The notes under the pieces: generated by a model | The model's database searches: none | The model's input: the letters and a program-made list of their open reading frames with translations, nothing else | Told to the model about the DNA's origin: nothing | Assembly: GCF_000383855.1 (NCBI RefSeq) | Contig: NZ_KB912877.1 | Location: 2,123,285-2,187,284 of the forward strand | Direction: 5' to 3' | Length of the DNA stretch: 64,000 nucleotides | Source: Methylobacter marinus A45 | Lineage (GTDB): Bacteria > Pseudomonadota > Gammaproteobacteria > Methylococcales > Methylomonadaceae | Part shown: piece after piece, positions 21,217-47,363 of the stretch | Numbering within the stretch: position 1 is the first letter of the stretch | Layout of the letters: each line of letters begins with the position of its first letter | Made by a program: the position numbers and the translations under genes

Positions 21217-22866
21217 ATGCGACATAAATTGATTACGGGCTTTTTTATTCTTTTAATTTTTGTGCCGCTAATCTTTCAATTGATCGGATTTAAAAGCGAC
21301 GTCGCGGAAAAACGAGCACTGGCGCAAATGCCGGAGTTCTCATTGAACAATCTTTATCAAAAGAATTTTTATTCACAGGTGGATAATTTTCTTAATGATC
21401 ATTCTGCTTCAAGAGGTTATGCAATAAAGTTTAAAAATTGGATAGATTATCGTATTTTTAATATTTCCCCAGCTCCTGCGGTCTTTATAGGAAAAGAAGG
21501 GTGGATGTATTACAAAACGACTCTCGGCGATTATCTTGATGATAGCTGCACGGCCAGGGAAAAAATGCGTTTAATTGCGCAACGTCTTGGTGAACTCAAA
21601 ACGGTGATAGAAGCTTCTGGGCGCAGATTTATTTTCACGATAATACCGAACAAAGCGACAGTTTATCCGGAATATGTCGGGCTTGACATAAATCCATCTA
21701 GATGCGGCAAAAGCCACTACGATCTGCTTGTTGAGGCTTTGGAAGGGTATAATATCGATAATTTTGTTAAAATTGATCACTTACTAAATGAAGCAAAGGA
21801 AGATGTTTTAGTTTATTACAAAACCGATTCGCATTGGACTGACGAAGGGGCGCTGATAGCTATCAATGCATTGTTTAAAAAACTCGATCCAGTTTCATGG
21901 GATCAATACCTCCCAAAATTTGACTTGGTTGAGGCTAAGTACAAAGGAGACCTCCTGGGGATGTTCGGATGGAATATTCAAGGGGAAGAGGAAGTTACTA
22001 GGAAAATTAAGGTTAAAGATGATCTCTATATAAAAGAAGAAAAAACCAATTATCTCAATAACGGTTATCCGTATGTAAGATATACCGAAAATAACAGAAA
22101 AGAAGGAAAAATATTCCCCAGAACCTTTATATATAGGGACTCTTACATGGTAGAGCCATTTAAGATTCTAAAAAGTTCCTTTAAAGAACTTGATGCAGCA
22201 TGGCCGATAGAAGACAACAAATTTAATGTACCTACTAATTCTTTTAATGAGAAAAAAGACCTGCTTGCGGCTGATATTATTATTCTTGAAGTTGTGGAAA
22301 GAAGCTCTGCTTATTTAAATATAGATATAGACAAAATGTTGGATGCGCTGAAGACCAAGCCCATGACAGTTGGTGATCAGGCTGAGGATGTCTCTCGCAA
22401 GATGAAAAGAAATCTTAATGATTACCTAGAGAAAGTTGAATTTAGTAACCTTTCCTTCGTGGGAAAAATTAGGGTAGATTTGCCAGTAGAAAAAAAACAA
22501 TTAACAAAATATATAGTTTTCTCAAAAGGTTGGAGCATGCAGGAGAATTGGGGAATTTGGTCTCTTGGAAAAAGATCAGTTTTCATTTTTTCAAAACCGG
22601 ATAAGTCATTTATCGGCATCAGATTGAAAGGACAATATTATAACGGAGACGAAAAAACAAGAGTAAGAGTTAATGGCAAATTCGTCGGGAATTTTGTTCT
22701 TACTGATCAAATTATTCGTATAAATAGCAGCGATTTATACGATGAGTATATACGCATTGAGCTTGAACACTTGAATCCAGTTTTTCCCCATGCGCTAGGC
22801 CAGAGCAATGACGCCCGAGAAATCAAATATGGGTTAACCGGTATTGAATTGATAAGCGGCTTTTAA
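21217..22866 (+). CDS. AlgJ/AlgX-like SGNH-type acetyltransferase
   Basis: 549 residues from ATG 21217. GAGGA at 21203-21207 sits 9 nt upstream and overlaps the previous stop; an in-frame TTG at 21208 has no room for a ribosome-binding site. Residues about 5-25 are one membrane anchor, and the rest is periplasmic. The AlgX/AlgJ signatures are GKEGWMYYK, the KTDSHWTDEGA block with the catalytic D-x-H, and IYRDSYM for the nucleophilic serine. The C-terminal 150 residues are beta-rich and not recognised. It transfers acetyl groups from the MBOAT partner to the glycan. It is more AT-rich than flanking genes. Confidence 0.85.
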   Translation: MRHKLITGFFILLIFVPLIFQLIGFKSDVAEKRALAQMPEFSLNNLYQKNFYSQVDNFLNDHSASRGYAIKFKNWIDYRIFNISPAPAVFIGKEGWMYYKTTLGDYLDDSCTAREKMRLIAQRLGELKTVIEASGRRFIFTIIPNKATVYPEYVGLDINPSRCGKSHYDLLVEALEGYNIDNFVKIDHLLNEAKEDVLVYYKTDSHWTDEGALIAINALFKKLDPVSWDQYLPKFDLVEAKYKGDLLGMFGWNIQGEEEVTRKIKVKDDLYIKEEKTNYLNNGYPYVRYTENNRKEGKIFPRTFIYRDSYMVEPFKILKSSFKELDAAWPIEDNKFNVPTNSFNEKKDLLAADIIILEVVERSSAYLNIDIDKMLDALKTKPMTVGDQAEDVSRKMKRNLNDYLEKVEFSNLSFVGKIRVDLPVEKKQLTKYIVFSKGWSMQENWGIWSLGKRSVFIFSKPDKSFIGIRLKGQYYNGDEKTRVRVNGKFVGNFVLTDQIIRINSSDLYDEYIRIELEHLNPVFPHALGQSNDAREIKYGLTGIELISGF

Positions 22867-44528: not shown

Positions 44529-46340
44529 GTGATCCAGAAATTAAGAAACATTGCCATCATTGCTCACGTAGACCACGGTAAAACGACCCTGGTTGACAAG
44601 CTGCTACAACAATCAGGCACCTTTGCCGCGCATGCCAAGGTTTCAGAGCGGATTATGGACTCTAATGATCTTGAAAAAGAGCGGGGTATCACGATTCTGG
44701 CCAAGAATACCGCGCTGGACTGGAACGGCTATCACATCAATATCGTCGATACGCCGGGCCATGCCGATTTTGGCGGTGAAGTCGAGCGAGTTCTGTCGAT
44801 GGTCGATTCGGTCTTGTTATTGGTTGATGCCGTAGACGGGCCGATGCCGCAGACACGGTTCGTTACGCAAAAAGCTTTCGCCTTGGGCCTGAAGCCGATT
44901 GTGGTCATCAACAAGATCGACCGGCCGGGTGCGCGCCCTGATTGGGTGGTTGACCAGACGTTCGATCTGTTCGATCGCCTTGGCGCGACCGATGAGCAGC
45001 TGGATTTTCCTATCGTTTACGCATCGGCATTAAACGGTTATGCCGGTCTTGATACATCGGTTACAGGCGGCGATATGACGCCGTTGTTCGAGACAATTGT
45101 TGAACAAGTCAGTCCGCCGGCCGTTGATCTGGACGGGCCGTTCCAGATGCAGGTGACTACGCTCGATTACAACACCTATGTCGGCGTGATCGGTATCGGC
45201 CGTATTCAACGCGGCACAATTAAGCCGAATACGCCGCTGGTGATCATTAACCGGGAAGGCGTTGAGCGCAGGGGGCGAATGCTGCAGGTTTTCGGTTTTC
45301 ACGGCCTGGACCGTGTTGAAGTGCCTGAAGCGCGTGCCGGCGACATTATCGCCTTTACCGGTATTGAAAAACTGGAGATATCCGACACGATCTGTCATCC
45401 GGACGCGGTGGAAATATTGCCGCCGTTAACGGTCGATGAACCGACAGTGACCATGACTTTTCAGGTCAATAATTCACCTTTCGCCGGCAAGGAAGGCAAG
45501 TTCGTGACCTCGCGGCAGATTCGCGACCGCCTGGAAAAGGAACTGCAGCACAATGTGGCGCTGAGGGTCGAAGATACGCCCGATCCTGATAAATTCAAGG
45601 TATCCGGTCGCGGCGAGTTGCATTTATCGGTTCTGATTGAAAATATGCGTCGCGAAGGCTTTGAATTGGGTGTTTCCCGGCCGGAAGTGATCATTAAGGA
45701 AATCGATGGCGAAAAATGCGAGCCTTTCGAGATGGTCACGATCGAGGTGGAGGAAACCCATCAAGGCGCGATCATGGAAAAAATGGGCGAGCGCAAAGGC
45801 GACTTGCTGAATATGGTGCCTGACGGCAAAGGTCGGATTCGCCTGGAGTATATGATCCCATCGCGCGGACTGATCGGTTTTCAAACCGAATTTATGACCG
45901 CCACATCAGGTTCCGGCCTGTTGTATCATGTGTTCGATCATTACGGCCCGGTGAAAAAAGGCGAGTTGGGTACACGCAAACGGGGCGTGATGGTTTCCAT
46001 GGTGCAGGGCAAGGCATTGGCCTATGCTTTATTTGCCTTGCAGGAGCGTGGTGAATTGTTTTTAGTTCATGCCGATGAAGTCTATGAAGGCATGTTGGTG
46101 GGCATACACTCGCGCGCCAATGATCTGGTTGTCAACCCGACCAAGGCCAAGCAATTGACGAATATTCGCGCTGCCGGTACGGACGAAAACCTGGTATTAA
46201 CAGCCATTCAGAAGATGACGCTAGAGCAGGCGCTGGAGTTTATTGGCGAGGATGAACTGGTAGAGGTTACGCCGAAATCGATCCGCTTGCGCAAAAAGCT
46301 CTTGACTGAAAATGAGCGTAAACGCGCTTCAAAAGGCTAA
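44529..46340 (+). CDS. typA: Ribosome-associated GTPase TypA/BipA
   Basis: 603 residues from a GTG start, normal for TypA. It is a translational GTPase of the EF-G family that binds ribosomes and supports 50S assembly at low temperature or under stress. G motifs are [40 protein letters not shown] and [10 protein letters not shown]. Domains III, V and the TypA-specific C-terminus follow ([58 protein letters not shown]). It stands alone, with the rhodanese gene upstream. Confidence 0.98.
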
Positions 46341-46381: not shown

Positions 46382-46432
46382 GGCTGGCCGCTATTTAAAA
46401 ATTGCGGATCCGCATGGCTTTGAATTTTGCAT

Positions 46433-46548
46433 AAAAAACCCCAGGGCACAAAGTGCGCTGGGGCTAAAATCGCCAGCTTGGTTGGCTTGATCCGTCCATG
46501 GCAACGTCCTGTTGAATAATCCTTGAAATCCGTTTCCTGTTTGGCGAT
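46433..46548 (-). ncRNA. Candidate RsmY/RsmZ/CsrB-type small RNA
   Basis: A minus-strand unit of about 116 nt between typA and hisB. Six GGA triplets fall within 70 nt, in contexts ACAGGA, ACGGA, AAGGA, ACAGGA, ATGGA and ACGGA, matching the ANGGA sites bound by CsrA/RsmA. One is in the loop of CAAC-AGGAC-GUUG. The 5' end AUCGCCA (46548-46542) pairs with UGGCGAU (46475-46469), closing the GGA region. A terminator follows: CCCCAGCGCAC (46462-46452 on the minus strand) with GTGCCCTGGGG, then six T (46438-46433). A GacA-box-like palindrome is upstream. Length, motifs, terminator and upstream site all fit RNAs that sequester CsrA/RsmA. Confidence 0.6.
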
Positions 46549-46603
46549 GTGTCTATTCTCTCAAAAAGTTCCAAGAAAAAAAGCCGGCTGAAGCGGAAAT
46601 TGA

Positions 46604-46621
46604 TGTAGGTAAAGGATTACA
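46604..46621 (-). promoter_or_regulatory. GacA-box-like palindrome upstream of the small RNA
   Basis: On the minus strand TGTAAT-N6-CCTACA matches the GacA upstream activating sequence TGTAAG-N6-CTTACA at 10 of 12 defined positions with the correct 18-bp length. Its centre is about 64 bp before the inferred start at 46548. The only -10 candidate there is GAGAAT (46560-46555), with no good -35, as expected for an activator-dependent promoter. A 14-bp palindrome AGGCAATATTGCCT (46622-46635) lies next to it. Confidence 0.5.
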
Positions 46622-46769: not shown

Positions 46770-47363
46770 ATGAATCAACGCATTGCCGAAGTAGAGCGGA
46801 ATACGCTTGAAACTCAAATTAATATTGCAATTAACCTGGATGGTTCGGGGAAAGCCTCGTTTGTAACGGGCGTTCCCTTTCTTGAGCATATGCTGGATCA
46901 AATCGCCAGGCATGGTTTGATTGATATGGAGATCGATGCCAAGGGTGACTTGGAAATTGATGATCACCATACGGTGGAGGATATCGGGATTACCTTAGGG
47001 CAGGCCTTTGCCGAAGCAATGGGGGACAAGACAGGGATTTACCGTTATGGGCATGCCTATGTGCCTCTGGATGAGGCATTATCCAGGGTAGTGATTGATT
47101 TTTCCGGGCGTCCCGGTTTATTTTATGAAGTAAAATTTCCGAAGGCGATGATCGGCAGTTTTGATGTGGATTTGTTCCGCGAGTTTTTTCAGGGATTTGT
47201 CAACCATGCGGGCGTCACGCTCCACATTGATAATTTGAAAGGCGCTAATTCCCATCATATTGCGGAGACGATCTTCAAAGCCATGGGGCGGGCGATACGC
47301 ATGGCTATTACCGCCGATCCGAGAATGGCCGGTATGATGCCTTCAACCAAAGGCAGTCTTTAG
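46770..47363 (+). CDS. hisB: Imidazoleglycerol-phosphate dehydratase
   Basis: 197 residues, the monofunctional form without the N-terminal phosphatase of enteric HisB. It dehydrates imidazole glycerol phosphate to imidazole acetol phosphate (histidine step 6). Manganese-binding motifs are [11 protein letters not shown] and [14 protein letters not shown], with the first histidine in [13 protein letters not shown]. It heads the run hisB-hisH-hisA-hisF-hisI-hisE, all on this strand with short gaps or overlaps. hisG, hisD and hisC are not in the window. Confidence 0.98.

Follow-up and report, generated by a model that had tools for sequence, protein, structure and literature searches.

A predicted RsmY/RsmZ-like CsrA-sponge small RNA gene between typA and hisB in Methylobacter marinus and its relatives

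Results

A probable small RNA gene in the typA–hisB intergenic region

The window, a stretch of 64,000 nucleotides of the Methylobacter marinus A45 genome (contig NZ_KB912877.1, positions 2,123,285 to 2,187,284), carries an intergenic small RNA (sRNA) gene on its minus strand, between typA (ending at 46340) and hisB (starting at 46770), which both lie on the plus strand. The RNA is estimated at about 119 nt (46431–46549, minus strand), close to the roughly 116 nt of the initial annotation, and the match to covariance model R1 (see below) covers window positions 46429–46552 (G000:C1:2169713-2169836, 124 bits). A transcription start near 46549 is suggested by A/T-rich hexamers seen by eye at the same place in relatives, the possible −10 hexamer here being AGAATA (46554–46559, minus strand).

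All elements of the RNA are on the minus strand. The 5′ strand of a 7-bp closing stem (ATCGCCA, 46542–46548) pairs with the 3′ strand TGGCGAT (46469–46475) both in the predicted fold and in an alignment of 53 homologs (helix 1). Six GGA triplets, proposed as CsrA-binding sites, fall within a 47-nt span (46491–46537) at 46535–46537, 46529–46531, 46520–46522, 46507–46509, 46495–46497 and 46491–46493; one lies in the loop of a CAAC-AGGAC-GTTG hairpin (CAACAGGACGTTG, 46502–46514, helix 2 of the alignment). A motif without GGA, GCCAACCAAGC (46476–46486), sits immediately 5′ of the 3′ strand of the closing stem. The intrinsic terminator (46433–46464) consists of a stem at 46439–46464 (helix 5) followed by six T at 46433–46438. 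The initial annotation had described the six triplets, the GGA-loop hairpin, the 7-bp closing stem and the terminator with its T run, and each of these is present.

Where dinucleotide shuffles have 2.6 GGA, the sRNA has six in 79 nt (P = 0.0019 for six or more); a seventh GGA (46570–46572) precedes the RNA. No other minus-strand stretch of the window reaches six GGA per 78 nt; the plus strand has one such cluster, at 21915–22036. The fold energy is −36.7 kcal/mol (z = −2.75), equalled by 3 of 200 shuffles. Consensus scans of the window listed neither a sigma-70 promoter at the sRNA nor the sRNA terminator; the terminator is called because of reading, folding and conservation, not because of a consensus scan. 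RsmX, RsmY and RsmZ of Pseudomonas are likewise RNAs of roughly 100–120 nt with several GGA, some of them in loops, and a terminator.

Homologs lie beside typA or hisB in genomes of the order

Searching at the DNA level gave relatives in 12 of 61 genomes, one of which is the window's own, and the same RNA is present on contigs of Methylobacter luteus and Methylobacter sp. BlB1. Covariance model R1, built from 12 sequences, had matches with E up to 0.01 in 80 of 311 genomes of the order, as a rule one per genome; this is a lower bound, because the filters were strict and few candidates were scored in each genome, and 231 of the 311 gave nothing. A second model, R2, matched 77 of the 311 (E up to 0.001) and did not raise the total. 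The window's genome has one clear copy; the next best R1 match has an E value of 0.69, and matches at this level or worse were not accepted.

We read 70 loci from 70 of the 80 R1-positive genomes, leaving out weaker matches. Two of these (L101 and L105) contained a terminator only, with 0 GGA, and were dropped. typA or hisB adjoins 66 of the remaining 68 loci, which makes this a single orthologous gene rather than a set of scattered look-alikes.

The structure and the GGA triplets are conserved

Among 12 homologs aligned with MAFFT, with no model used, two-sided changes occur in 11 of 24 predicted pairs. A larger alignment, A3, comprises 53 of the 70 loci; it omits 11 long forms from genus f7/g35, four single loci (L091, L094, L102 and L103) and the two false loci. 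In A3, which was fitted to the model and so favours the structure, 94.3% of the cells at predicted pairs are paired, compared with 81.6% after shuffling, two-sided changes occur at 19 of 24 pairs, and the covariation score is 0.446 against 0.204, a level reached by 0 of 500 shuffles. The signal is destroyed when pairing partners are slid by 1–3 columns.

Individual helices follow the same pattern. Helix 1 (six closing-stem pairs) is paired in 97.5% of cells, with two-sided changes at 4 of 6 pairs; helix 2, the GGA-loop hairpin, is paired in 89.9% of cells, with two-sided changes at all four pairs, so that the hairpin singled out in the initial annotation also covaries; and the terminator, helix 5, has two-sided changes at 9 of 10 pairs. 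A covarying terminator helix on the strand opposite both neighbours points to an independent gene with its own terminator.

Within the first 85 nt, the 53 homologs carry a mean of 4.6 GGA, compared with 2.2 after shuffling; 11 of the 53 have only 2–3. Like CsrA-sponge RNAs as a class, the sRNA has several GGA sites with at least one in a hairpin loop. The initial annotation had looked to relatives that keep the flanking genes and lose the motifs as a sign against this assignment; most of the 68 loci keep the motifs, the clear exception being L094 (0 GGA, outside the 53), with several other loci at only 2–3 GGA.

A GacA-type box lies at a fixed distance upstream

A palindrome of the GacA/UvrY type, TGTAATCCTTTACCTACA (46604–46621, minus strand), has its centre 60 nt upstream of position 46552, the model start. 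It agrees with the consensus at 10 of 12 positions, as the initial annotation had stated. For the consensus we used TGTAAGNNNNNNCTTACA, the UvrY site given in the accessible part of PMC4682653. When the 120 nt upstream of each of the 53 homologs are searched for the best GacA-type box, it falls at −59 to −64 in 45; boxes that agree at 9 or more of 12 positions occur at −58 to −65 in 43 of the 53, compared with 0.5% of shuffled upstream sequences. The significance of the box comes from this fixed distance in relatives, since a lone 10/12 box is at chance level: genome-wide, sites with at most two mismatches number 73 per strand, against 115 for a reversed control pattern. Box sites were therefore rejected as a guide to further sponge genes, and a scan of the loci at 15 of the 73 sites gave no stretch with more than 4 GGA in 80 nt. 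Elsewhere in the window's genome, two GacA-like palindromes lie 223 bp apart (G000:C1:841184-841424).

The window's genome has one csrA match, over curated cut-offs. Its GacA-like regulator scores best with the NCBIfam family UvrY/SirA/GacA (256 bits; next family 157), below the 280-bit cut-off, which a single genome among the 72 searched passes. A search for PF09984, the BarA N-terminal domain and the sole sensor domain sought, gave no match in the window's genome.

We compared 31 RNA-bearing genomes picked from the order with 38 that had no RNA match (plus three from outside the order); related genomes among them are not independent. A GacA-like gene with E up to 1e-65, a threshold chosen after the table was seen, is present in 28 of the 31 RNA-bearing genomes and in 16 of the 38 genomes without an RNA match (Fisher P = 3.7e-5). 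With E up to 1e-50, the limit of the search, the counts are 29/31 and 23/38 (P = 0.0017). Two RNA-bearing genomes lack a GacA match: G180, which has an 8/12 box, and G057, in which the box is also missing. Near the box position G057 (L053 = L011) has a different short palindrome, GTGAACTATTTCAC, perhaps a site for another regulator.

The RNA falls outside Rfam models and extends beyond the order

No Rfam family reached its cut-off on the window RNA, on 15 further loci of the order or on 18 loci outside it, and the gathering cut-offs of RsmX, RsmY, RsmZ, CsrB and CsrC in particular were not reached at the loci scanned. The check with Rfam models (CsrB, RsmX, RsmY and RsmZ) that the initial annotation had proposed thus came out negative for the window RNA. 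Among 121 genomes of the order, none had an RsmY match above the cut-off of that model, and 35 had subthreshold RsmY matches (E up to 0.01). Of four subthreshold RsmY loci read, three looked like terminators at gene ends; the fourth (L135 1501–1565, genome G075) has 3 GGA, a box at −61 that agrees at 9/12 positions, and a stretch of ACAACCAAGG. A match to Bp1_162, below cut-off and on the wrong strand, was set aside.

Across the class, R2 matched 10 of 369 genomes: two of the order, three accepted after reading (G450, G657 and G325) and five with a terminator only; loci L127–L131 of this search, with a terminator only and 0–1 GGA, were dropped. In the family of G657, R2 matched 72 of 146 genomes, some of them two to five times. 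Outside the order, where this family has 72 genomes with a match, our reading covered 39 matches at 32 loci. In 38 of the 39 matches a box that agrees at 8 or more of 12 positions lies at −57 to −65 or −81 to −84, and typA or hisB adjoins 23 of the 32 loci. Where scanned, Rfam 15 has no match to the predicted sponge family, whose range takes in a second family of the class, one rich in genera.

A conserved motif without GGA matches the csrA leader

The initial annotation made no mention of the conserved CCAACC or of its match to the csrA leader. In the 53 homologs, conservation of the GCCAACCAAGC columns is 79–98%, with one G, at 57%, as the exception; the best GGA site reaches 98–100% and the others 62–98%. 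CCAACC is present at 50 of 68 loci of the order and in 35 of 39 matches outside it, counts that lean upwards among matches as models R1 and R2 contain the motif.

The csrA leader of the window's genome contains CTTGGTTGG, complementary to the motif over 9 nt, 55 to 47 nt before the ATG; it lies in a predicted hairpin that closely follows a TATAAT, covering the loop and some of the stem. In G053, from another family, the csrA leader contains TTGGTTGGC, again complementary over 9 nt, 42 to 34 nt before the ATG. These are the only two csrA leaders read; the first match is post hoc, and that in G053 was found after the prediction had been set from the leader of the window's genome. By eye, the two leaders have no other evident similarity. 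csrA was not found in 60 stretches of G782 (outside the order; 1.2 of 2.6 Mb), nor by synteny guess in 20 stretches of G003 and G002.

Among other leaders of mechanically called ORFs, 2 of 692 and 1 of 519 have runs of at least 9 nt, and none of 75 in the window does; runs of at least 8 nt are not rare (12/692 and 3/519). When flanking bases are included, the predicted duplex energies do not stand out, since 59 of 692 and 13 of 75 other leaders do equally well, and an energy-based ranking of targets, which did not single out csrA, was discarded. The csrA leader of E. coli K-12 has a complement of only 5 nt, and E. coli CsrB is without CCAACC. In the window's genome the gacA leader (L115, minus strand) contains GCTTGGTT, complementary to the motif over 8 nt, 36 to 29 nt before the ATG, which makes it a second candidate target.

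Discussion

A probable CsrA sponge under GacA control

The locus between typA and hisB very probably holds the gene of a GacA-driven, RsmY/RsmZ-like CsrA-sponge sRNA. This reading draws on the conserved, covarying structure, the box at a fixed distance, the synteny, the presence of csrA and a GacA-like gene in the genome, and the co-occurrence of the RNA with GacA. A response regulator of the GacA/UvrY type would bind the upstream box and switch on transcription of the sRNA. The RNA of about 119 nt, held by its closing stem and ended by its terminator, would display several GGA sites, one of them in a loop, and CsrA dimers bound at these sites would be kept off their mRNA targets. The RsmY/RsmZ-type sponge proposed in the initial annotation is borne out in the sense that the RNA is predicted to work like RsmY and RsmZ, as structure, GGA sites, box and synteny suggest; as an identification with RsmY or RsmZ it does not hold, the RNA scoring below their Rfam cut-offs.

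It is extremely improbable that the locus holds no RNA gene, and that a chance cluster of GGA happens to lie beside a neighbour's terminator. A 10/12 box is common in this genome and the consensus scans list neither promoter nor terminator, as that reading would have it, but it leaves the covariation, the synteny and the fixed distance of the box unaccounted for, and a terminator on the minus strand serves neither neighbour because both are on the plus strand. A base-pairing sRNA of another kind with no role in CsrA control, such as Rfam sX11, is also very unlikely. Matches to sX11 (19.9 bits) and anti-hemB (17.6 bits) do occur; both are weak and below cut-off, the gathering scores being 70 (sX11, RF02230) and 49.5 (anti-hemB), and it is mainly stem ends and the terminator that align. 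Such an RNA would also be at odds with the GGA enrichment and the GacA-type box.

The role of GCCAACCAAGC is a more evenly balanced matter, on which two readings bear. A sponge that titrates CsrA may in addition pair through this motif with the 5′ leader of csrA mRNA, an addition compatible with the preferred reading of the locus and one to which we give a chance slightly short of even. The motif is conserved in the range of the better GGA sites, CCAACC is widespread, both csrA leaders read contain a 9-nt complement of a kind rare in other leaders, and the gacA leader contains one of 8 nt; set against this are the small number of leaders, the first of them matched post hoc, their different distances from the ATG, the ordinary duplex energies, the frequency of 8-nt runs and the bias of the models in the motif counts. 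Alternatively, the RNA may act on CsrA by titration only, its CC-AA-CC pairing with the neighbouring GG-NN-GG or binding another protein, and the csrA match may be due to chance; we regard this as quite possible, while leaning somewhat against it. In the window RNA, folding predicts that the motif's Cs are engaged by the GG of the final two GGA sites, the four Cs being unpaired with a probability of 0.01–0.04, and the corresponding helices 3 and 4 are 97% and 85% paired across the 53 homologs. These helices covary little, however, with one two-sided change at each pair of helix 3 and none in helix 4; some RNAs outside the order keep the motif with no GG-NN-GG partner evident by eye, and chance would have to explain a match over 9 nt in two csrA leaders. 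One could speculate that CsrA, once bound at the last two GGA sites, frees GCCAACCAAGC.

Taken together with the spread of the family, the preferred reading can be extended to an ancient typA-hisB sponge, present in two or more distant groups within the class, with two functions: its GGA sites would titrate CsrA, its GCCAACCAAGC would pair with the csrA leader and perhaps that of gacA, and CsrA itself would free the antisense element. We offer this as a tentative proposal, rather less likely to be right in full than wrong. If it were true, the action of the RNA on csrA mRNA would set in chiefly at high CsrA levels, forming a feedback loop within one molecule.

Relation to known sponge RNAs

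The comparisons with cited papers that follow are with the accessible portions of their texts. A palindromic sequence upstream of RsmX, RsmY and RsmZ has been described as a potential GacA site (PMC2375449); the RNA described here differs from these three (RsmY = RF00195) in its typA-hisB locus, its CCAACC motif and its scores below Rfam cut-offs. CsrB and CsrC of E. coli are CsrA sponges with many GGA, driven by UvrY through TGTAAGNNNNNNCTTACA (PMC4682653). CsrB is 369 nt long, with 22 GGA and no CCAACC, whereas the sRNA here is about 119 nt with six GGA, and the CsrB box is centred near −183 (PMC4682653), compared with about −60 here. The SELEX-derived CsrA site is RUACARGGAUGU, with the GGA mostly in a short hairpin loop (PMC7652899), and the loop site CAAC-AGGAC-GTTG resembles it.

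Other sponges recall the present RNA in some respects. Aln1a–c of Alteromonas macleodii are A(N)GGA-rich analogs of CsrB-C/RsmX-Z, three in one intergenic region of 404 nt (PMC5864184); the likeness is one of description, the available text giving no sequence. CsrR2 of Alcanivorax dieselolei, a putative CsrA sponge conserved in its genus, has its own promoter and six unpaired GGA (PMC9788540); it too is likened here by description, and is linked with a ferredoxin gene and compared in that paper with fdxA-rsmZ. The Csr sponges Pf1–Pf3 of Pseudoalteromonas fuliginea have 25, 21 and 9 GGA motifs, and imperfect pairing of these sponges with a few mRNAs has been predicted; the RNA predicted to act on csrA mRNA is a different one, the antisense sRNA0654 (PMC11882849). 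In that species, then, the csrA-directed RNA is not one of the sponges. A limited literature search, of papers seen in part, gave no report of a sponge pairing with csrA mRNA.

Searches of the open-access literature turned up no described RNA antagonist of CsrA in methanotrophs. PMC5568370 predicts CsrA-binding RNAs in other species, and the accessible main text has no word beginning with 'Methylo'; csrA of Methylomicrobium album is down-regulated under limitation, in a paper whose accessible text does not mention 'sRNA' (PMC9241951); and the accessible parts of PMC9029176 and PMC4066749 held nothing relevant. The kind of RNA, a CsrA sponge, is known. Judged from its sequence, the present one would function like RsmY and RsmZ while standing outside their Rfam models, and it carries in addition a conserved element that these comparisons leave unexplained.

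CsrA governs carbon flow and lifestyle choices in many bacteria. The analysis provides a locus, a structure model and, for organisms that serve in methane conversion, a knock-out target that is single-copy in the window's genome, and it raises the question of whether a CsrA sponge can also act on csrA mRNA by base-pairing.

Variant forms in relatives

Two loci beside typA/hisB depart from the common form, L094 (1001–1110) and L103 (1001–1100), with boxes of 8/12 and 9/12 and with 0 and 3 GGA, respectively. They may be in decay, or may be remnants that serve another function. The RNAs of genus f7/g35 (L087, L089, L092, L093, L095–L100 and L104) are longer and, by eye, have more GGA hairpins; their GacA boxes agree at 11–12 of 12 positions, and the motif GCCAACCAAGC is kept, as GCCAGCCAAGC in L095. 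Outside the order, the typA locus of L138 and L140 (about 1501–2666) holds four tandem copies of the RNA, each with a box about 82 nt upstream; in the last copy CCAACC is lost and there are 3 GGA, compared with 5–6.
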